Shown here piece after piece: positions 458 to 10,631 of a DNA stretch of 10,788 nucleotides (within the stretch, counting starts at the first letter, position 1; the number at the start of each line of letters is the position of its first letter). Below the pieces are notes generated by a model. The model saw nothing but the letters and a program-made list of their open reading frames with translations. It ran no database searches and was not told where the DNA came from. Origin of the DNA: Pseudomonadota bacterium (GTDB lineage: Bacteria > Pseudomonadota > Gammaproteobacteria > Steroidobacterales > Woeseiaceae); contig JADFGH010000037.1 in assembly GCA_022567775.1 (NCBI GenBank), forward strand, positions 1 to 10,788, given 5' to 3'. Both the position numbers and the translations under genes were made by a program.

Positions 458-2986
458 CTACCAGGTTACCGGGTTCCAACCCGCGAACAGGCTGCGAGAC
501 ACACCACCCAAGATGGCAGTCTGGGCCTCCCGTACGTTGATCCAGTAGAACTTACCTCCGGCGATCTCATCCACCGAGTTAGCGGCGGCGAAGACCGGAC
601 GCGGGTCATACAGGAACCAGCCGAAGTCTGGCGCCACGCTCTGCTGTGACGGATCGAAGTGCCAAACCCGCTGCAGGTTGTCGTTGTTGCTGATCAGCGC
701 GGCCAGTGCGTCAGCAGGCGCCTGTGAGGCCGCGACCGGCGCCGGCGTAGCCGTAGCCGCGACCGACAGCACCGTGAAGGTATCGGTGGCCACGGTGTTT
801 GAGACTGTGGCGGTAACGCTCTGGGAGCCCGTATTTAGCTGGGGCACCAAGATCGTCGCCGTGAAACTGCCTTCACTATCGGTGGAGGGCACCGGCGCAG
901 GCCGTACGTCCACGTCACCGATGTTAAGCGCCGAAACCGTGGAGAAGGTCTTGAACCCTTGGCCAATGATGCTTACTGTGGTGCCCGTAGGCCCTTCAGA
1001 GGGATCGATAGTGACCGTGGCCCGCGGTATCCGGTGAGTTGAGCCCGTGGTGGACACAATGTCAACAGAGTCGCCGGTGGGCCGATAGTTGAACTCCGCC
1101 GTAACCGAGTTGGTGGAGGGAATAGCGGTGTTCAAGGGCACCGTGAAGGTCCCGAGGATGTTACCGGAGGCGTCGGGCGTCAGGGTGGCGACGGTCTGGG
1201 CGGTGCCCGCAACCGTGTACCTGATGGATATAGAAGGCGTCGACGCCGCCCCGGTCTTGGTATTGTCCCCTGGGAACCCAGTGCCGGTTACGGTGACGAC
1301 GGTCCCCACCCGGCTCTCCGCGGGGCTCAAAATAATTGTCCGCGGGGCTATGACCAGGACACCAACTCCCTCGCGGCCCCCGTCGTCGGTTATCTTGAGC
1401 TCGTGGGTGCCCGGGGTAACGGTTGTGTTATTGATGGGCAGCACGATGGAGGCCGACCAGTTACCGCCGTTATCGATGGTAATGGAGTTGCCTTCGTTGA
1501 TCTTGTTGGTGGTTGCGCCTCCGGAGGCTTTGAGGCCAATGGAGCTACCATCAATCAATATGCTGCTGGTGTCTGTGGTGGTGCCGGATATTTTAGCTCC
1601 GCCACCAAGGCTGTAGCCCCGACCGATGACCGTGATTGTTTGGTTGGGAACCAGGTTTGTGTCAGGCGTCAACGAAAGGTCGGCGCCACTAATCACCATC
1701 TTCGCGTCGTCACTGCCGCTACCGATGAATACTTTAATTTCCTGCGTGCCGCTGGGGACGCCGTTGGGTATGGTGATATTGAAGGTCGCGTCTCCCTGCG
1801 TGGTCATCGTGACCGTCGGCAGGCCGGTGACGATGATTCCACCTATCGTGACCGAGGTGAGCGATGCCCCGCTAGCGAAATCTGTCGCTTTTATCTGGAC
1901 GGTATCGCCTATGGAGGCGCTCGAAGGCGTAACTGCAATGTCATCCGACAAGCTGAACCTGGGGCAGGTGAAGTCACTACTCCGGCAATGCAGAGTGTTG
2001 TTCTGGCCGTCGATGGCGTTCCAGGTGTTGCTGGTACCGGTCGTTAAGGCCGTATCAGCCGTCTCTCCTGAACCCTTGCCGGGGGAGAATGGGGGATTGC
2101 TGACAATTACCGTGACACTGAAGGTGTCGTCTGAACCCACGAGGGCGCTGGCCAGGGTAATCTCACCGGTATCCCTCGTGCCGTCGGCATCCACGTCCAG
2201 CCAGATCGTGGCGGTGGTCCCGTCCTGGAAGCCTTTGCCCGTAAGGGTCACGTCATCGCCCCGGGCCCCGGACTCATCGTTGACCAGGAGCTTCGGTACC
2301 AGGAAAAGACTGATTCCGCGAGACCCGTCCGCTGCGCCATCTATCCTCGCGATGACGAGGTGCAGAATATTTTCTGTCAGATCATGATCGCCCGACGTGA
2401 TAAAAATCTTGGTCCCACTGATGTCGTAAGAACCGTCATTGTTTGGAGACGCCTTCGTCGTGAGCATTCCAAGGTCGGAGCCGCAATGAGGTTCCGTCAA
2501 ACACATGGTGCCGGACCATACCCCCTCCACCATTTTCGGCAGGTACTGCGCGCGAATTTCCTCGGAGGCGCACACGGCGAGCAGATGATAAGCACCGTGA
2601 CTCAGCTCTGCATACAACTTGAACGCAAGATTCGTGGCTCCCAGCATTTCATCGATCAGGAAGCTGACCAGCTTGGGCAATCCCTGGCCGCCATGACCTG
2701 GCTCGGCATCGATGCTGGTCCAGCCGTTCTCGATAAATCTCTGGTACACGTTTTTGAATCCTGGCGGAGTTGTCACGGCTCCATCGGCGAATACGGCGCC
2801 ATGTTCGTCACCGTCCCGGTTGATCGGCAGGACCTCGGTGCTGCAAAATTTTCCTGCCTCTTCGAGAACGGCCTCCAGGATATCTTTGTCGAATTCCTCA
2901 TAGCCCGGCAATGAGTTCAATGTGTCGATGCCGATCCACTCATCGATGAGGAACATCATGTCTTTTACTGGCGCGTTATAGATCAC
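458..2986 (-). CDS. Chimeric ORF: truncated DmdC-type acyl-CoA dehydrogenase joined in frame to a TIG-repeat surface protein
   Basis: One 842-residue frame begins at GTG 2986 and ends at TAG 460-458. Residues 1-236 are the N-terminal part of a DmdC-type acyl-CoA dehydrogenase (family about 590-600 aa). They start with YNAPVKDMMFLIDEW and carry the flavin-contact motif MCLTEPHCGSDLG (161-173), then 'GTKIFITSGDHDLT' and 'GISLFLVPKLLVN'. The C-terminal helical domain with the catalytic Glu is absent. From about residue 237 the protein becomes five IPT/TIG-like repeats, each with a GDxVTLTGKGF-like strand (near 243, 360, 447, 560 and 667). An Ala/Pro linker (742-757) leads to a C-terminal domain with VWHFDP, FLYDPRPVF, FYWINV and GWNPV. 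The GTG start fits the conserved family N-terminus; Met10 and Met11 would truncate it. There is no signal peptide, so the surface half could not be exported. The start lies 13 bases after the hydrolase stop, so the dehydrogenase half belongs to the methionine/sulfur operon. Most likely a chimeric contig rather than a real fusion. Confidence 0.75.
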   Translation of the reverse strand: MIYNAPVKDMMFLIDEWIGIDTLNSLPGYEEFDKDILEAVLEEAGKFCSTEVLPINRDGDEHGAVFADGAVTTPPGFKNVYQRFIENGWTSIDAEPGHGGQGLPKLVSFLIDEMLGATNLAFKLYAELSHGAYHLLAVCASEEIRAQYLPKMVEGVWSGTMCLTEPHCGSDLGMLTTKASPNNDGSYDISGTKIFITSGDHDLTENILHLVIARIDGAADGSRGISLFLVPKLLVNDESGARGDDVTLTGKGFQDGTTATIWLDVDADGTRDTGEITLASALVGSDDTFSVTVIVSNPPFSPGKGSGETADTALTTGTSNTWNAIDGQNNTLHCRSSDFTCPRFSLSDDIAVTPSSASIGDTVQIKATDFASGASLTSVTIGGIIVTGLPTVTMTTQGDATFNITIPNGVPSGTQEIKVFIGSGSDDAKMVISGADLSLTPDTNLVPNQTITVIGRGYSLGGGAKISGTTTDTSSILIDGSSIGLKASGGATTNKINEGNSITIDNGGNWSASIVLPINNTTVTPGTHELKITDDGGREGVGVLVIAPRTIILSPAESRVGTVVTVTGTGFPGDNTKTGAASTPSISIRYTVAGTAQTVATLTPDASGNILGTFTVPLNTAIPSTNSVTAEFNYRPTGDSVDIVSTTGSTHRIPRATVTIDPSEGPTGTTVSIIGQGFKTFSTVSALNIGDVDVRPAPVPSTDSEGSFTATILVPQLNTGSQSVTATVSNTVATDTFTVLSVAATATPAPVAASQAPADALAALISNNDNLQRVWHFDPSQQSVAPDFGWFLYDPRPVFAAANSVDEIAGGKFYWINVREAQTAILGGVSRSLFAGWNPVTW
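2253..2288. other. Chimera breakpoint between acyl-CoA dehydrogenase and surface-protein sequence
   Basis: On the minus strand the dehydrogenase-like sequence (SLFLVPKLLVND, up to about 2277) changes to TIG-like sequence (GARGDDVTLTGKGF, from about 2268) within some ten residues. The short GC-rich stretch between them is flanked by the 6-base direct repeat TCATCG at 2253-2258 and 2274-2279, which could have served as microhomology. The protein families, gene style and inferred taxon differ on the two sides. I infer an assembly or recombination junction; the exact base cannot be fixed by eye. Confidence 0.65.
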
Positions 2987-2999
2987 AGGGTTTTCTCGG

Positions 3000-3809
3000 T
3001 TAAGTTGCAGGGTTGTTGGTGTAGATGAAGACTTTCAGCAGATCCCGGCATTTGTCCGGCACTTCCTGGGGCACCATGTGGCCACTCTCGGGAATGATGT
3101 GCACCTCGGGACTGTCCAGGTGTTTGACCAGTTCGGTAGTTGCCTTGCGTGGCGCCATGCGGTCCTGGCCACCCAGCATGACCTGGACGGGGACACCGAT
3201 TTTTGCTGCCGCTTGTTTGCCGTTGCTGTAGGCGTTGCAGGCCTGCAGATCTGCTGCCAGTGCTTGCGGTGCATTGCCGCGCATGACCTTGAGGCCGGCA
3301 GCGACCATCGAGCTTCCGGGAATCGGCCCCTGGTGCAGGTGACCTGCCGGACCGAAGCCCCAACCCACCATCATCGCGATAGCGTCTTCCGGACTATTCG
3401 CGGCGGCCTCAAGCAAAGCGGGATTGACTGGCGTGGCAAGGCCACTCGCGATCAATGACACACTGCGGACCCGCTGCGGATGGCGGGATACAAACTGCAG
3501 GGCATTCAGTACGCCCTGCGAGTGTGCAACGACAGAAATGTTGTTGATATCCAGTGTCTCCACAACTTCATTAAGCCAGTCACCGATCTCCTCAATCGAC
3601 TTCAGTGGAGGACCCTCGGAATGCGAGTGTCCGGGCAGGTCGGGTGCCAGGACTGAATATTTCCTGAACGCGAAGAACCGCGTGTACAGGCCCCAAAACG
3701 TATGGTCAAGTCCGCTGCCGTGCAAAAAGATCACGCACGACAAGCTGTTATCAAACGGCTTGCCGCCGGTGGTCGCGAATACCCGTTTGCCGTTGACCTC
3801 GAAATACAT
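3000..3809 (-). CDS. Alpha/beta hydrolase
   Basis: This 269-residue protein has the full alpha/beta-hydrolase layout. An HGSG oxyanion-hole motif lies at 30-33 and DLPGHSHSEG at 57-66. The nucleophile elbow is AHSQG with Ser97, the likely acid is Asp216 in GGQD, and His244 is in SGHMVPQE near the C-terminus. There is no signal peptide, so it is probably cytoplasmic. The length is normal for the family. The substrate is unknown: esterase, thioesterase and C-C hydrolase all fit this fold. The ATG lies only 2 bases after the TGA of the MetY-like gene, which suggests translational coupling, and the acyl-CoA dehydrogenase follows 13 bases after its stop. The setting suggests action on an ester or thioester made in this operon, but this is inference. 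Confidence 0.9.
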   Translation of the reverse strand: MYFEVNGKRVFATTGGKPFDNSLSCVIFLHGSGLDHTFWGLYTRFFAFRKYSVLAPDLPGHSHSEGPPLKSIEEIGDWLNEVVETLDINNISVVAHSQGVLNALQFVSRHPQRVRSVSLIASGLATPVNPALLEAAANSPEDAIAMMVGWGFGPAGHLHQGPIPGSSMVAAGLKVMRGNAPQALAADLQACNAYSNGKQAAAKIGVPVQVMLGGQDRMAPRKATTELVKHLDSPEVHIIPESGHMVPQEVPDKCRDLLKVFIYTNNPAT

Positions 3810-3811
3810 GC

Positions 3812-5110
3812 TCAGGCATCCGCAAATTTCTTCGCCGCGCGGAAGCCGTTTTCGAAATCGGCCTTGATGTCTGCGACATCCTCGAGTCCGACGGAAAGCC
3901 GGATCATGTCTTCGGTAATACCTGCCGCAACCAGCCCTTCTGCATCGATGCGCCCGTGAGTGGTAGTGGCCGGGTGGATGATCAGGGTCTTGGCGTCACC
4001 GACATTGGCCAGGTGCGACGCAAGCTGAAGATTTTCGATAAATGCCTTGCCGGCGTCCCGCCCGCCTTTGACGCCGAAGCTGACGATAGAGCCCGCGCCC
4101 TTCGGCAGGTATTTCTTCGCGAGTTCGTGGCTGGAATGCGACTTCAGGTCAGGGTGACTGACCCACGATACCTGTTTGTGTTTTGACAGGTGATCGAGCA
4201 GTTGCCTGGTATTGGATGCGTACCTGTCCATGCGCAGCGACAGCGTTTCAATTCCTTGCAGCAGCAGGAACGCATTCATCGGGCTCATCGACGCACCGAA
4301 GTCACGCATGGCCTCGGCACGGATGCGTGTCGCGAATGCGCTGGGGCCGAACTCCTCCCAGAAGTTGATGCCCTGGAACGGTGCGTACGGCTCGGTAATG
4401 GTCGGATACTTGTCAGTCGCGCCCCAATCGAAGTTGCCGCCGTCGACGATCGCACCTCCGATGGCCAACCCGTGCCCCCCCATCCACTTGGTGACGGAAT
4501 GAATGGTGATGTTGACGCCGAAATCGAAACACCTGCATAGATAGGGAGTGTTGAAGGTCGCGTCCACCATGAACGGGATGTGATTATCAGCGGATATTTT
4601 CACGATGGCCTCGAGGTCAAGGATGTCGAGGCCAGGATTGCCAATCAACTCACCGTAGATCAGCCGGGTGTTGTCCTGCAGCGCCGACCTGAAGCCATCA
4701 ATGTCCAGCGGATCCACGAACGTCGCAGTGATACCGAAACGGGGCAGCGTGTTCTTCATCAGGCTTATGTTGCCGCCATACATTTGCGACGAGGCGACGA
4801 TGTGATCGCCCTGCCCGAGGATTGCCGTGATCGCACAATAGGTCGCCGCCATGCCGGAAGCCGTGCACACCGCCGCGGAGCCGCCCTCGAGTGCAGCAAT
4901 GCGCTGCTCGAGTACGCCTACCGTCGGATTGGTGATGCGCGAGTATGCGTGACCACCGCGCTCGAGGTTGAAAATGGAAGACGCGGTGTCGGTATCCGGA
5001 AAAACATATGACGTTGTCTGGTAAATCGGGGTTGCGCGCGCGCCGAACTCGGGATCCACCGTTTGCCCGGCATGCAGGCTCAGGGTGTCAAAGTGATAGA
5101 AGTGCGACAT
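3812..5110 (-). CDS. metY: O-acetylhomoserine aminocarboxypropyltransferase (sulfhydrylase), MetY-like
   Basis: A 432-residue Cys/Met-metabolism PLP enzyme of usual MetY length. It would replace the acyl group of an O-acylhomoserine with sulfide (giving homocysteine) or methanethiol (giving methionine). Visible signs are FDTLSLHAGQ at the N-terminus, the phosphate-binding HAYSRITNPT (Tyr56, Arg58), SGMAA near 85-89, GNPGLDILDLEAI (158-170) and Asp183 in VDATF for the pyridine nitrogen. The Schiff-base lysine is Lys208 in HSVTKWMGGHG, and RLSVGLED (404-411) is the substrate-carboxylate region. MetY proteins are separated from MetB/MetC by the insertion after the lysine (FDWGATDKYPTITEPYAPF...), which is present here. 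An AGGA ribosome binding site lies 5 bases before ATG 5110. It sits 19 bases after the MetB-like stop, so the two PLP enzymes are co-transcribed. Acyl preference (acetyl or succinyl) cannot be read from the sequence. Confidence 0.92.
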   Translation of the reverse strand: MSHFYHFDTLSLHAGQTVDPEFGARATPIYQTTSYVFPDTDTASSIFNLERGGHAYSRITNPTVGVLEQRIAALEGGSAAVCTASGMAATYCAITAILGQGDHIVASSQMYGGNISLMKNTLPRFGITATFVDPLDIDGFRSALQDNTRLIYGELIGNPGLDILDLEAIVKISADNHIPFMVDATFNTPYLCRCFDFGVNITIHSVTKWMGGHGLAIGGAIVDGGNFDWGATDKYPTITEPYAPFQGINFWEEFGPSAFATRIRAEAMRDFGASMSPMNAFLLLQGIETLSLRMDRYASNTRQLLDHLSKHKQVSWVSHPDLKSHSSHELAKKYLPKGAGSIVSFGVKGGRDAGKAFIENLQLASHLANVGDAKTLIIHPATTTHGRIDAEGLVAAGITEDMIRLSVGLEDVADIKADFENGFRAAKKFADA

Positions 5111-5129: not shown

Positions 5130-6281
5130 TCAGACGCCTTCGAGGGCCTTATCCAGTGCTCCGATCAGGTCTTCGACATCTTCGAGGCCGACCGACAGGC
5201 GTACCAGGCCATCAATAATTCCGACACGTTGCCGCTCTGCTTCCTCGACGTCGGCGTGTGTCATCGTCACCGGGTGCGTGATCAGCGACTCTACCGATCC
5301 CAGGTTCTCGGCCAGCGTCCAGACCTCGATGGTATCCATCAGCTTCTTGCCTGCTGCAAGACCGCCTTTGACTTCAAACCACGCCATCGCGCCGTAACCG
5401 CTAGCCTGGCGGGTGGCGAGCTCGTGCTGGGAGAATGATTCGAGACCCGGGTAGCGGACCTGCTCCACTTTCGGATGCGACTCCAGGAATTTTGCGATTG
5501 CCATCGCATTCGCAGACTGCTGATCCATGCGCAACGACATCGTCTTACAACCCTGCGACGTAAGCCATGCGACCTGTGGCGACATGATGCTGCCGGTGCT
5601 GTTCTGGATGAAGCGAATCGCCGCGCCATGTTCCTCGGATTTGCTGATCGTCGCACCGCCGACGGTCGCGTTGTGTCCGTCCATGTACTTGGTGGTGCTG
5701 TGCACGGAAACATCGGCGCCAAGCTCCAGCGGTAACTGGTAGTAAGGCGTAAGGAGTGTATTGTCCACAACGTGTATGGCGCCGGCGCCCTTCGCAATTT
5801 CGGAAATTGCGGCGATGTCCGAACACTTCATCGTCGGATTGGCAGGCGTCTCCGTAAAAATCATGGCCGTGTTGTCGCGTATGGCGCCGGCAACCTCGTC
5901 GACGTTCGACGTATCCGCGAATGTAAACTCAATGCCGAATCGCGATAACACCTTGGTCGCGAGCCGATAAGTACCACCGTAGGCGACATCGGATATGACC
6001 GCATGTTTTCCGGCATCCAGGAATGCCAGCATCGTTGCCGTCGTTGCACCCATGCCGGTGCCAAAGCAGGAACAGTCGACGCCGCCTTCCAGATCGGCCA
6101 GCTTCAGTTCGAGCGCCTTGACGGTCGGGTTGCCGGAGCGCGAATAGGAATATCCCTTGTCCAGGTATTCGTCGATTGACGCCTGAACGAAAGTCGTGGT
6201 CTGGTAAATCGGCGTCAAGATCGAACCGGTTGTCGGGTCCGGCGTTACGCCTGCGTGTATCTGCCTGGTGGTGAAACCCAT
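5130..6281 (-). CDS. metB: Cystathionine gamma-synthase/gamma-lyase family PLP enzyme
   Basis: A 383-residue PLP-dependent transsulfuration enzyme, normal length for cystathionine gamma-synthase or gamma-lyase. The N-terminus is TRQIHAGVTPDPTTGSILTPIYQTTTF. YSYSRSGNPT (44-53) binds the cofactor phosphate of the partner subunit, and ETPANPT follows at 144-150. Asp173 in VVDNT contacts the pyridine nitrogen, and Lys198 in HSTTKYMDGH forms the Schiff base. LAENLGSVESLITHPVTMTH and RLSVGLED close the active site. AAGGA lies 9 bases before ATG 6281. Its place directly after metA favours synthesis of cystathionine (or homocysteine) from an O-acylhomoserine; gamma-lyase or sulfhydrylase activity cannot be excluded because these activities share all motifs. 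It is a distant paralog of the MetY-like protein next door. The 169-base gap to metA holds the REP pair. Confidence 0.88.
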   Translation of the reverse strand: MGFTTRQIHAGVTPDPTTGSILTPIYQTTTFVQASIDEYLDKGYSYSRSGNPTVKALELKLADLEGGVDCSCFGTGMGATTATMLAFLDAGKHAVISDVAYGGTYRLATKVLSRFGIEFTFADTSNVDEVAGAIRDNTAMIFTETPANPTMKCSDIAAISEIAKGAGAIHVVDNTLLTPYYQLPLELGADVSVHSTTKYMDGHNATVGGATISKSEEHGAAIRFIQNSTGSIMSPQVAWLTSQGCKTMSLRMDQQSANAMAIAKFLESHPKVEQVRYPGLESFSQHELATRQASGYGAMAWFEVKGGLAAGKKLMDTIEVWTLAENLGSVESLITHPVTMTHADVEEAERQRVGIIDGLVRLSVGLEDVEDLIGALDKALEGV

Positions 6282-6450: not shown

Positions 6451-7524
6451 TTACCTAACGCCGAGCTCAAGCGGATCATCCGGATCGACTCCCGGCATGA
6501 ATTGCCGTCTACGGTCATGGCTTGTTAACTGGTAAACGAGGCCCAGCCAGTTGTTGACCATCGCTTTACCGGTATCGCCCCACGTGTTGTGTACCTGTTG
6601 CTCGAGCTCCCTTTCGGGAAACTCAGGCATTTCGTCGTTGTTCTCAATCGCCGTACGACATGCAGATATAAATGACTCGGCAATCCCGATCGCCTCGTCC
6701 GTAAAATAGTGTTCCGGATAAGGCGGCGGTGACTTCAGTTCGCCGTCGATGAAGCGAAACACCTCGCGCTTGTATTCTTTCAGCAGACTTACGGCATGGT
6801 ATTCCGGGTGACCCTGGAAGTAGACGGCGCGGAACTGGTCCGGGCTGACCGCAAGATGCACGCCGGCTTCCGGACTTTCTGCCAATACGGTTAACCCCGC
6901 ATCTTCGAGTTGCTCCCGGGTTACCTCGTTGTACCGGGAATGCGGTGCATCGAAACGCGTGTTGATGTCACGCATCAGCGGGTGTTTCGGTTCGCTTATC
7001 CGGTGACTGTAAACGCCCCAGCGTTTTTGCGGCATTCGCTGACGGTCAATGCCGTGGTGGTATTTGACCAGCGCATGCGTTGCGAGGCAGGAACAGAATA
7101 TGGAGGCCACATTGGACTCTGCCCAGCGAACAACCTCGATCAGGGGTTTCCAGAACGCTTCCTGGTCCAGCGAAGGATTGGCGACATTGGCGCCGGTGAT
7201 AATCAGTGCGTCCAGGCCCTGCGCCATCAAAGCGTCAAACGAAAAATAGTACTGGCTGATATGTTCCTCGGCTGCCGCGCCACGATTGAGTTCCCTGATG
7301 GAAAAAGGATATACGTAAAACTGCGCAATCTGATTGCAGCTGCCGATGAGCCTTATGAACTGATGCTCGGTCACACTCAGCGCCGCATCCGGCATCATGT
7401 TCAGCAGGCCAATATGCAGCTCACGGATATCCTGCTTCCTGGCGCGCTCAAGCGTCAACACCTCCTGGCCGCCTTCCCGCAGCCGCCTAAATGTTGGTAA
7501 ATCGTTGTGTGCAACCAGGGGCAT
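6451..7524 (-). CDS. metA: Homoserine O-acyltransferase, MetA family
   Basis: MetA-family transferase (glutamine-amidotransferase-like fold) that acylates homoserine as the first step of methionine synthesis. From ATG 7524 the protein has 357 residues, and its first 45 align without gaps to E. coli MetA as I recall it (MPxxxxxxLPxxxxLRE to LLNMMP). An upstream TTG at 7569 would add 15 residues but fits the family less well. The catalytic cysteine is Cys146 in FCSCLATHAL; His239 and Glu241 in GHPEYH complete the triad. APHSRY is present. The position corresponding to E. coli residue 111, known to set acyl-CoA choice (Glu for acetyl, Gly for succinyl), is Ala115 in TGANVANP. The C-terminal part carries about 50 residues more than the 309-aa E. 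coli enzyme (near SPPPYPEHYFTDE to NTWGD). First gene of a leftward operon with two PLP enzymes. A weak ribosome binding site leaves the start slightly uncertain. Confidence 0.9.
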   Translation of the reverse strand: MPLVAHNDLPTFRRLREGGQEVLTLERARKQDIRELHIGLLNMMPDAALSVTEHQFIRLIGSCNQIAQFYVYPFSIRELNRGAAAEEHISQYYFSFDALMAQGLDALIITGANVANPSLDQEAFWKPLIEVVRWAESNVASIFCSCLATHALVKYHHGIDRQRMPQKRWGVYSHRISEPKHPLMRDINTRFDAPHSRYNEVTREQLEDAGLTVLAESPEAGVHLAVSPDQFRAVYFQGHPEYHAVSLLKEYKREVFRFIDGELKSPPPYPEHYFTDEAIGIAESFISACRTAIENNDEMPEFPERELEQQVHNTWGDTGKAMVNNWLGLVYQLTSHDRRRQFMPGVDPDDPLELGVR

Positions 7525-7706
7525 GCTATTCAGGTACTGCTCACATTGAAAAGTCGGGTTATCATGCAATGCTCCATTCGAACAGGCCCCCTGATGGACG
7601 TGACCAGGTCATCGAGGCCGGCCCACAGGATGAAATGTCGGTTCCACTATAGCGAGCCACGTTCAATAATATTGTTTTAAGGGCTGCCCGCCCTGTATTT
7701 TAAAGG
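7525..7706. promoter_or_regulatory. Divergent promoter region between the met operon and the Rieske operon
   Basis: This ~180-base stretch separates divergently transcribed genes and must hold both promoters. Two perfect palindromes stand out: TGACCAGGTCA at 7601-7611 and CAATAATATTG at 7664-7674. Each has 5-bp arms around one central base, as expected for small dimeric repressor or activator sites. A TATAGT on the minus strand (complement of the ACTATA at 7647-7652) could be a -10 box for the met operon, but no convincing -35 is spaced from it. I see neither the MetJ box (AGACGTCT) nor the conserved core of a SAM-I riboswitch. The TTG alternative start of metA (7569) lies inside this span. 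Confidence 0.5.
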
Positions 7707-8942
7707 ATGAATCAGACAAGAATGCGCGATACCCGATCCATACGAGAACTGATCGCCTGTCAGAGGTCTGGCTGCTCTCTGGAGCAGCGGTTTTACACTG
7801 ACCCGGAAATCTACGCTCTCGAACTCGAGTGTATTGTCATGCGAAACTGGATTTTTACCGGCCACCAGTCACAGCTCGCAGAAGTCGGAGACTACCTGGT
7901 CCTGAACGTTGCCGGTGAATCCGCAATCGTGGTCAGGAGCAAGCAAGGTGGCATCAAGGCATTCGCCAACGTATGCCGGCACCGGGGTTCCATTGTTTGT
8001 CTCGGGAAGAGCGGCAACAAGCGAAAATTTGAGTGCCCGTATCACGGATGGATGTACGACACAGATGGCAATCTGATTGCTGCCCGAAATATGCCCGAAG
8101 ACTTCGACAGGACGAGTTACGGTTTGCACAAGGTACCCGTCGAAATCGTCCATGGTCTGATTTTCATCTGCTTCTGCGATGCGCCGCCGTCAATCGAGGG
8201 CGCGCGTCGTGACATGGCGGAGCCGCTGGCGATGTTTGATTTCGAAAACCTGAAGGTCGCGGCGCAGAAAACTTATCCGATTAGCGCAAACTGGAAACTG
8301 GCGGTAGAAAATTACCAGGAATGCTATCACTGCGCTGTCGCACATCCCGAGTACGCCAAAATGCACACGCTGATGCTTGAGGGAAAAAGACGGCAACTTA
8401 TCCAGTCACATATGCTTGAAAATATGGGTGCCTGCGGCCTCAAGACTATCGAAATCGATTATATTGACACGAAGGCGCGACCCGGCGAGACGGGCTTCGG
8501 ATATAGCCGGTCAGCGCTCTTTGAAGGTTACAAAACCGGTAGCAAGGACGGCCAGCCGGTTGCGCCTTTACTCGGTAATTTGACCGGCTATGATGGTGGC
8601 GCATCCGACATAACTTTCGGGCCGTTCAGCTTTTTCCTGGCCTACAGCGATCACGTAGTTGGCTATGTTTTCACGCCGGTGGATGCAAAGAATTGCCAGT
8701 GTCGAATCTACTGGCTGGTACGCGGTGACGCAGTCGAGGGAAAGGACTATGACCGCGATGAGCTCATGTGGCTGTGGGACGTAACGACCTGTGCAGACAA
8801 AATAATCATTGTGAACAACTGGAAGGGCATCAATTCCAAATACTACCAGCCGGGCCCGTTTTCAGGTATGGAAAAGGAGGAACAACGATTCGTTGACTGG
8901 GTGCTGCAGGAGTTGCGCCGCGCTCCCCAATACCCGAGCTAG
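7707..8942 (+). CDS. Rieske non-heme iron oxygenase, alpha subunit (CntA/GbcA-like active site)
   Basis: A 411-residue aromatic-ring-hydroxylating-type oxygenase subunit. The [2Fe-2S] Rieske site is Cys90-X-His92 with Cys110-X2-His113 (CRHRGS ... CPYHGW). The catalytic domain has NWKLAVENYQECYHCAVAHPE; His208 and His213 with Asp364 (CADKIIIVNNWKG) form the mononuclear iron site. The bridging residue that is Asp in naphthalene dioxygenase is Glu205, as known for carnitine monooxygenase CntA. This points toward the quaternary-amine/demethylating branch (CntA, GbcA, choline monooxygenase) rather than classic arene dioxygenases, but the substrate is unknown. AAGG touches ATG 7707, so spacing is poor; Met6 (ATG 7722), 14 bases after AAGGA, is an alternative start. 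A reductase is required and is not in the window. First gene of the rightward group with two FAD oxidoreductases. Confidence 0.9.
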   Translation: MNQTRMRDTRSIRELIACQRSGCSLEQRFYTDPEIYALELECIVMRNWIFTGHQSQLAEVGDYLVLNVAGESAIVVRSKQGGIKAFANVCRHRGSIVCLGKSGNKRKFECPYHGWMYDTDGNLIAARNMPEDFDRTSYGLHKVPVEIVHGLIFICFCDAPPSIEGARRDMAEPLAMFDFENLKVAAQKTYPISANWKLAVENYQECYHCAVAHPEYAKMHTLMLEGKRRQLIQSHMLENMGACGLKTIEIDYIDTKARPGETGFGYSRSALFEGYKTGSKDGQPVAPLLGNLTGYDGGASDITFGPFSFFLAYSDHVVGYVFTPVDAKNCQCRIYWLVRGDAVEGKDYDRDELMWLWDVTTCADKIIIVNNWKGINSKYYQPGPFSGMEKEEQRFVDWVLQELRRAPQYPS

Positions 8943-9014
8943 CAGCCTGTTGAATAAGAAAGATACTGGCCGATAAGAATAATCCCGGCACCTCGATCAA
9001 GAGCGATTTTATTT

Positions 9015-10631
9015 ATGAAAACATACGATGCGATTGTTATTGGCGCAGGCCACAATGGACTCACGAATGCTGCATACCTGGCAAAGTCCGGCCTGGACGT
9101 TTTATGTGTCGAAAAGAACGATTACATCGGTGGCGCGACCGTAAGCCGCAATCTTTACAAGGATTGGATCTACTCGAATTGCTCCTACGTGTGCAGCCTG
9201 CTGCGGCCCGAGATTTATCGTGACCTGGAACTGGCCAGGCATGGTCTGCAGGTAACACCCTACGGCGGCGGCTCGGTTTTCATGGAGAACGGCGACTATC
9301 TCGGCAGTTATCCTGACGACGAAGTGCATCACCGCGAGTACGCCAGGTTTTCCAAAGCGGACGCCGATGCGTACGAGCGCTATTCGGCGGACACGATGCG
9401 CCAGTGTCGATTCATTCGTGATTTCCTGTTACGCACGCCACCGGATCCAACGTCGTTTAAACCCAGGGACCTGAAAGAGCTTGCACATCTCGGCAAGAAA
9501 TTCTTTGAGATGAGCGAGCAACGAATGTACGACACGATTCGTTTCTGGACCATGAGTGTCGCCGAATATCTCGACGAGTATTTTGAGACGGATGTCATTA
9601 AAGCTGCGTTGTCCGGGAGCGGCATCATCGGCACGGCGCTGGGCATCCATTCGCCGGGTACTGCCTACGTACTGTTGCATCACTACATGGGAGAGGTCGA
9701 CGGCAATATGGGCGCGTGGGGTTTTGCGCGCGGCGGCATGGGTGCTGTTGCTGACGCGATCAGCAAATCTTACCAGTCACTGGGTGGCGAGCTGCGGGTC
9801 GATGCGGGCGTTGACCAGATTGTTGTGAAAAACGGCAAGGTCAAGGGTGTGGCGCTAACAAGCGGCGAAGAAATAGATGCGCGTATCGTCGTATCGGCGA
9901 TGGACTTCAAGCGCACTTTCCTCAAGTGCATGGACAAGAACGATCTCGATCCGGATTTCTATCATCGTGTCAAACATTTCAAGATTCGCGGTTCCTCCGG
10001 CAAGGTCAATATCGCGCTCGACGGGATGCCGACATTTCCGGCGTTACCCAAAAACAGTCCATTGCTCAACGGCGATATGCATTTCATCGATTCGATGGAG
10101 CGCATGGAGCGGGCCTACGACGACTGGAAGGAGGGCACCTGGTCGAAAGACCCGTACGTCGACATGGTGATTCCGACGACTTCCGATCCGACGATGGCGC
10201 CGCCAGGCAAACACTACATGAGCTGTTTTGTGCAGTACTGCCCCGCCAAAGTCGAAGGGCGCGAATGGACCTCTGAGGAGCGGGACCAGTTCGGCCAGAC
10301 AGTAATCGATCAGATTGCCAAGTACAGCCCCGACTTCAAGGATCTTATCCTGCATGTAGAAATTCGCACAGCACAGGACATCGAAGACGAAGCTGGCCTA
10401 ACCGAGGGCAATATCTTCCATGGCGAGTTGACAATGGACCAGTTGATGTTCAATCGGCCGATTCCCGGTTATGCCCAGTATCGCGGGCCGGTGGCGGGAC
10501 TTTATATGTGTGGCTCGAGCACGCACCCGGGCGGCGGTGTGATGGCCGCCCCCGGTTGTAACGCGGCGCGGGAAATTCTTATTGATCTCAAACGGCCGGA
10601 TGTCACGCCCGTCAACTTCAGTGAAGACTAA
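9015..10631 (+). CDS. Phytoene-dehydrogenase-like FAD oxidoreductase (PYROXD2-like)
   Basis: A 538-residue flavoprotein of the CrtI/amine-oxidase superfamily. The N-terminal dinucleotide-binding fold has GAGHNG (10-15), then Glu33 at the end of strand two for the ADP ribose and GGA (39-41). The C-terminal FAD motif is GLYMCGSSTHPGGGVMAAPG (495-514), and it keeps the GGMGAVADAI segment typical of the family. It is closer to the mammalian PYROXD2 group than to carotenoid desaturases, and there is no phytoene synthase or other carotenoid gene nearby, so a carotenoid role is unlikely. Substrate unknown. It begins 72 bases after the Rieske stop with only a weak upstream GAGCG, and ends by overlapping the next gene by one base. 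The arrangement suggests successive oxidation steps on one substrate. Confidence 0.88.
   Translation: MKTYDAIVIGAGHNGLTNAAYLAKSGLDVLCVEKNDYIGGATVSRNLYKDWIYSNCSYVCSLLRPEIYRDLELARHGLQVTPYGGGSVFMENGDYLGSYPDDEVHHREYARFSKADADAYERYSADTMRQCRFIRDFLLRTPPDPTSFKPRDLKELAHLGKKFFEMSEQRMYDTIRFWTMSVAEYLDEYFETDVIKAALSGSGIIGTALGIHSPGTAYVLLHHYMGEVDGNMGAWGFARGGMGAVADAISKSYQSLGGELRVDAGVDQIVVKNGKVKGVALTSGEEIDARIVVSAMDFKRTFLKCMDKNDLDPDFYHRVKHFKIRGSSGKVNIALDGMPTFPALPKNSPLLNGDMHFIDSMERMERAYDDWKEGTWSKDPYVDMVIPTTSDPTMAPPGKHYMSCFVQYCPAKVEGREWTSEERDQFGQTVIDQIAKYSPDFKDLILHVEIRTAQDIEDEAGLTEGNIFHGELTMDQLMFNRPIPGYAQYRGPVAGLYMCGSSTHPGGGVMAAPGCNAAREILIDLKRPDVTPVNFSED

Follow-up and report, generated by a model that had tools for sequence, protein, structure and literature searches.

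A probable assembly chimera joins a Chloroflexota TIG-repeat protein gene to a gammaproteobacterial acyl-CoA dehydrogenase gene at a short word that both seem to carry

The window analysed here, a stretch of 10,788 bases that makes up the whole of contig C343, is almost certainly a chimera, whatever its cause, of DNA from two bacterial phyla. Sequence comparison suggests that it is very probably a chimeric metagenome contig, most likely joined by the assembler at a word that the two parent genes appear to share in frame. The contig belongs to a bin of 403 contigs (2.38 Mb, 83% complete, 3.1% contaminated), and the join lies inside a minus-strand open reading frame of 842 codons with a GTG start (458-2986), in which an acyl-CoA dehydrogenase (ACDH) of gammaproteobacterial type, represented by its first ~237 residues, passes in frame into a Chloroflexota-type TIG protein, of which the last ~605 residues are present. 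What looks like a fusion protein is probably an artefact, and there is nothing in the fused frame whose function needs explaining.

The fused frame and its intact parents

The open frame runs through the join with no internal stop (Table 1). The 842-residue protein bears Pfam matches to Acyl-CoA_dh_N at residues 38-155, to a truncated Acyl-CoA_dh_M at residues 161-232 (profile positions 2-68 of 97) and to a TIG/IPT domain at residues 659-738 (PF01833; 30.5 bits against a cut-off of 20.9). It has no match to PF00441, the C-terminal dehydrogenase domain, which in ACDHs carries the catalytic residue, and it is thus not classed as a functional ACDH. By eye, no signal-like start precedes the TIG part, whereas the intact relatives P0002-P0004 begin with one. 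The preliminary description had reported an ACDH half (residues 1-236) that ends before the catalytic domain and is fused in frame to a repeat protein without a signal peptide, and each element of this reading holds against the Pfam matches and the alignments to intact relatives. The TIG part of the window is the only PF01833 match in the whole bin, and no other TIG domain was found there.

Table 1. Features of the window (positions in bases of the 10,788-base stretch)
Feature	Position	Strand	Basis
Small secreted-type protein, 125 aa, cut by contig end	3..377	-	Chloroflexota-type, belongs with TIG gene
C-terminal ~605 residues of Chloroflexota TIG-repeat protein (left parent)	458..2275	-	84-87% identical to P0002-P0004
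Join word, where both parents meet	2274..2293	-	AAGCTCCTGGTCAACGATGA, K-L-L-V-N-D plus GA
N-terminal 237 residues of ACDH (right parent)	2276..2986	-	Pfam N and partial M; 95% identical to P0100
Alpha/beta hydrolase	3000..3809	-	Pfam; 59-72% identical, same neighbourhood in L037-L040
Cys/Met-metabolism PLP enzyme, O-acetylhomoserine aminocarboxypropyltransferase type	3812..5110	-	Pfam; NCBIfam NF006004, 648.9 bits (cut-off 636); 77-88% identical, neighbourhood kept in L037-L040
Second Cys/Met-metabolism PLP enzyme (cystathionine gamma-lyase/synthase or methionine gamma-lyase type)	5130..6281	-	Pfam
Homoserine O-succinyltransferase	6451..7569	-	Pfam; 61-68% identical, same neighbourhood in L037-L040

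The two parents were sought separately, and about 8000 candidates were scored in each of three protein searches (TIG side, ACDH side and junction). From about 5.8 billion proteins, the 7992 with the most words in common with the TIG side (residues 236-842) were scored, and 99 of them passed. The nearest relatives other than the entry that the window's own protein holds in this large collection (P0001) are P0002-P0004, proteins of 864-873 residues that match across the whole queried part at 84-87% identity. Dehydrogenase domains occur among the 99 matches only in P0001. Organism names are given for three of them and point to Chloroflexi and SAR202; where the sources name the family at all, the label is 'hypothetical protein', and GWN, found within the last 12 residues of 85 of the 98 relatives, is a conserved ending of this Chloroflexota family. 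A scan at the genome level with an alignment of 19 TIG relatives located six Chloroflexota loci that encode distant relatives; a scan of genome contigs with the window's own TIG part found no close one. A literature search combining SAR202 and 'TIG domain' returned no paper.

On the other side, the query of residues 1-260 retrieved ordinary dehydrogenases, and among the best 120 of 7997 matches a TIG domain is present only in the window's own entry. The closest other ACDH among the matches listed is P0100 (579 aa), 95% identical over the dehydrogenase part, and PF00441 is present in P0100 as well as in the other dehydrogenases among those matches. The names that accompany the listed ACDH-side matches are Woeseiaceae, Gammaproteobacteria and Pseudomonadota, although most matches on either side come without an organism name. 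The two sides of the window therefore differ in their closest taxa, and both parents exist elsewhere intact and unfused.

The junction itself (residues 197-277) is covered in full only by the window's own entry among the best 120 of 7843 matches. The next three among the matches listed are the TIG proteins P0002-P0004, with 57-75% of the query covered, and the remainder are ordinary dehydrogenases. Two of these, P0200 and P0251 (587-589 aa), align weakly over 91-93% of the query, at 53-57% identity, and were considered as further fusions, but were rejected because they have normal dehydrogenase domains and no TIG domain. In 59 other genomes related to the bin, none of the matches listed extends past query residue 285 and none covers the TIG part. 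A second protein with both halves was found neither among the 99 TIG-side matches nor among the best 120 of 7997 on the ACDH side and the best 120 of 7843 at the junction; the same fusion in another genome, which the preliminary description had named among the observations that would speak against a chimera, is thus absent from the matches listed in every search. Two short signature motifs, one for each half, occur together only in P0001 among the fetched proteins. These motifs are narrow (a slightly wider form of the first is found in 87 of the 119 ACDHs listed, and the GWN ending is common to 85 of 98 TIG proteins), and the claim that no other fusion is present is therefore based on the Pfam domains of the matches instead.

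Place of the join and the word at it

The likeness to intact ACDHs dwindles around residues 237-244, and that to P0002-P0004 starts at about residue 232. The interval previously proposed for the change was 2253..2288; the join itself lies slightly further right, at 2274-2293. Here the window reads VPKLLVNDESGARGDDVTLTGKGF, with dehydrogenase ahead of the word and TIG protein behind it. At the same place, P0002-P0004 read RKLLVND(D/E)SGARGDDVTLTGKGF, and most aligned dehydrogenases read VPK(F/L)LVNDDGSLGERN, with P0101, P0103 and P0147 varying within it; P0100-P0104 and P0111 take the form K(F/L/FH)..VN(D/N).

On the ACDH side the join can be compared with C100, a contig of the same bin, which carries the C-terminal part of a close ACDH allele that continues normally past the join. 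Without gaps, C100 and the window agree at 293 of 316 bases as far as base 2274 and at 75 of the 300 that follow; the 16 nucleotides ending at base 2274 are free of mismatches, and divergence sets in from the very next base. This second dehydrogenase allele (L036, G000:C100, 3-1370) starts right at the end of its contig, and because an allele so close (293/316) sits at a contig end, the bin probably mixes strains around the dehydrogenase gene.

The word K-L-L-V-N-D is common to each of P0002-P0004 and to three of the seven ACDHs compared (P0102, P0111 and P0113); the other four (P0100, P0101, P0103 and P0104) have no six-residue word in common with P0002-P0004. Between P0102 and P0003 it is the sole six-residue word in common, and any common 6-mer with P0102 arose in 55 of 2000 shuffles of P0003, P0102 having been picked for this test because it contains K-L-L-V-N-D. 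The same test with 5-mers was uninformative (732/2000). Among the 119 dehydrogenases listed, PKLLVND occurs in 5 and PK(L/F)LVND in 33, and K(L/F)LVN(D/E) is found in 3 of 98 TIG relatives, these being the three nearest, P0002-P0004. The nearest ACDHs, P0100 and C100, read KFLVND, one base off the KLLVND of the window, and P0104 shows the same change of L to F. Since P0100 and C100 have F at this position, the shared DNA word would be 20 nucleotides long if the ACDH parent of the window had L, and otherwise 16 nucleotides with the mismatch further out. The word is observed as DNA on the ACDH side only (16 nucleotides) and as protein on the TIG side.

A direct repeat, TCATCG, had also been described as flanking the change. 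Its copies are indeed found at 2253 and 2274, but the hexamer occurs 16 times on the plus strand and 9 times on the minus strand of the window, and some repeated 6-mer is present in 121 of 1076 sampled 36-bp stretches of it. As a mark of recombination the repeat was rejected, its frequency being at chance level: the 2274 copy forms the border of the stretch that seems to be shared, and the one at 2253 is coincidental.

Gene order and composition on the two sides

To the right of the join lies a set of methionine-metabolism genes whose order was compared in four of the 59 related genomes (L037-L040), picked because their dehydrogenases are the nearest (60-72% by tblastn). In each of them the dehydrogenase is grouped, in the gene order of the window, with the alpha/beta hydrolase, the first Cys/Met PLP enzyme and homoserine O-succinyltransferase. 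The second PLP enzyme is 81% identical to its counterpart at the same place in L037 and is not separately present in L038-L040; it reaches the cut-off of none of the 25 NCBIfam models listed. Because 11 genomes of the same genus gave no ACDH match above 48% among the matches listed, the right-hand gene order is drawn from other genera of the family. In all four relatives a FadB-like gene of ~774 aa lies between the hydrolase and the dehydrogenase; it is absent from the window, where the gap is 13 bases (2986-3000), and the best match to it in the bin is 34% identical, so that either a lineage-specific loss or another spot to be checked in the reads may be involved. Further right, at 7707-10631, the window carries two plus-strand genes. 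One encodes a Rieske oxygenase for which glycine betaine monooxygenase is the nearest model (302.6 bits, far under the curated cut-off of 670); the other encodes an oxidoreductase that comes closest to CrtO (275.1 bits, far under the curated cut-off of 1000). Neither was found beside the methionine cluster in L037-L040, except for a weak match of 46 aa in L038.

DmdC is one family of the long (~580-600 aa) bacterial acyl-CoA dehydrogenases, and the label 'DmdC-type' earlier given to the ACDH half, which would imply specificity for methylmercaptopropionyl-CoA, is no more than plausible; P0100 exceeds the cut-off of no NCBIfam model. A gene resembling the DMSP demethylase DmdA adjoins the dehydrogenase in three of the four relatives (L037 4862-6220, L039 11072-12190 and L040 7531-8649). 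The one tested, that of L037, scores 350.6 bits, under the curated cut-off of 410, and the best match to it in the bin is 33% identical. The presence of a DmdA-like gene beside methionine-metabolism genes hints at a DMSP/methionine sulfur neighbourhood in these relatives.

To the left, the small secreted-type gene has a relative directly behind the TIG gene in two of the six Chloroflexota loci by tblastn (L041, 42% over 108 aa; L043, 41% over 97 aa) and in one more by eye, L042, where the gene behind the TIG gene has a start of similar appearance and tblastn gives no match. No relative of the small protein was found by tblastn in L045, L046 or L044, the contig of the last ending just behind its TIG gene.

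Tetranucleotide composition changes at the join as well. The left 2273 bases lie at a distance of 0.276 from the Chloroflexota loci and 0.393 from the bin, against 0.270 and 0.112, respectively, for the right 8495 bases, with a bin reference in which 7 of 19 contigs are wholly N. The left side is further from the bin than any of the 47 equal-sized control chunks retained, and no control chunk leans to Chloroflexota; 3 of the 47 come from the right side of the window itself, and 4 others were skipped for stretches of N. In a 1-kb sliding scan, the sign flips between 1501-2500 and 2001-3000. Among chunks of Chloroflexota, 21 of 28 fall on their own side, and because the other 7 do not, the composition test is supportive but imperfect. 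The tetranucleotide comparison had been proposed in the preliminary description, and once run it separates the two sides with the switch at the join; the further claim that gene style changes there, from Chloroflexota-like on the left to gammaproteobacterial-like on the right, is borne out by match names, gene order and tetranucleotides together.

Origin of the join and comparison with known systems

The intact parents, the lack of recurrence among the matches listed, the gene order of each side and the composition all support the original suggestion of a probable chimeric contig, and the likely cause of the join is the point that is new here. Bases 1 to ~2273 would derive from the genome of a SAR202/Dehalococcoidia-like member of the Chloroflexota, contributing the 3' part of a TIG gene along with the small secreted-protein gene, and bases ~2294 to the end from the gammaproteobacterium of the bin. 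The junction would lie inside a word probably carried by both genes, K-L/F-L-V-N-D, of 16-20 nucleotides and in the same frame, a short-read assembler most likely having crossed between the two genomes at small k. Assemblers often begin at k near 21. A word with the same reading frame in both parents would keep the frame open and make it resemble a fusion. We infer that the TIG parent has the same DNA at the word, and that the error arose during assembly and not by amplification or in the library.

A chimera formed in vitro before assembly, by whole-genome amplification, PCR or library ligation at the same short homology, would leave the same anatomy, as template switching likewise uses short common words; chimeras of this kind are usually rare molecules that an assembler does not favour, and such an origin is improbable. 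Still less likely is a true fusion, in which interphylum recombination through microhomology would have brought a Chloroflexota surface-protein cassette into a gammaproteobacterial ACDH gene, cutting the latter. The frame that stays open through the join without a stop would suit such an event, as would the position of the join at a probable microhomology, which is seen in some real recombination. Yet its product would have no catalytic domain on one side and no export signal on the other, the same bin holds a close ACDH allele with a normal continuation beyond this point, and a real fusion was rejected as the main reading given its absence from other proteins, and from related genomes into the TIG part, among the matches listed. 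That the contig is one true piece of a single unusual genome and merely misassigned to its bin is the most remote of these readings: a bin contamination of 3.1% would allow for it, but a single source does not account for a left side that fits Chloroflexota together with a right side whose genes and composition fit the bin and its family.

The assembly chimera favoured here is a case of data quality, in that such a contig passes inside a bin with 3.1% contamination and the fused protein has an entry of its own (P0001) in a large collection. Since the join is probably an artefact, no gene neighbourhood is to be read across it, and a claim that the methionine-metabolism cluster is syntenic with the Chloroflexota genes would be wrong. 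The case also points to an inexpensive test for apparent fusions of this kind, namely a search for a word common to both parent families exactly at the join and in the same frame.

The whole retained TIG part is 84-87% identical to the SAR202-type Chloroflexota proteins P0002-P0004, and in some distant loci of this family a small gene likewise lies behind the TIG gene; unlike these proteins, that of the window has lost the N-terminal ~250 residues, including the signal-like start. Residues 1-237 are clearly the N-terminal part of a long bacterial ACDH, 95% identical to P0100, which itself aligns along nearly its full length with the solved chains 8png, 8pns and 6ijc, whereas the window's protein is devoid of the C-terminal catalytic domain. 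The join, for its part, would resemble the inter-genome chimeric contigs known from short-read metagenomes, in which two genomes are joined at a short shared word and assembly graphs linked by shared k-mers lead to chimeric contigs, as set out in the review PMC7299287. Passages of that review concern closely related species and name sequencing errors as another link, whereas the window appears to unite different phyla through what is seemingly a chance word.
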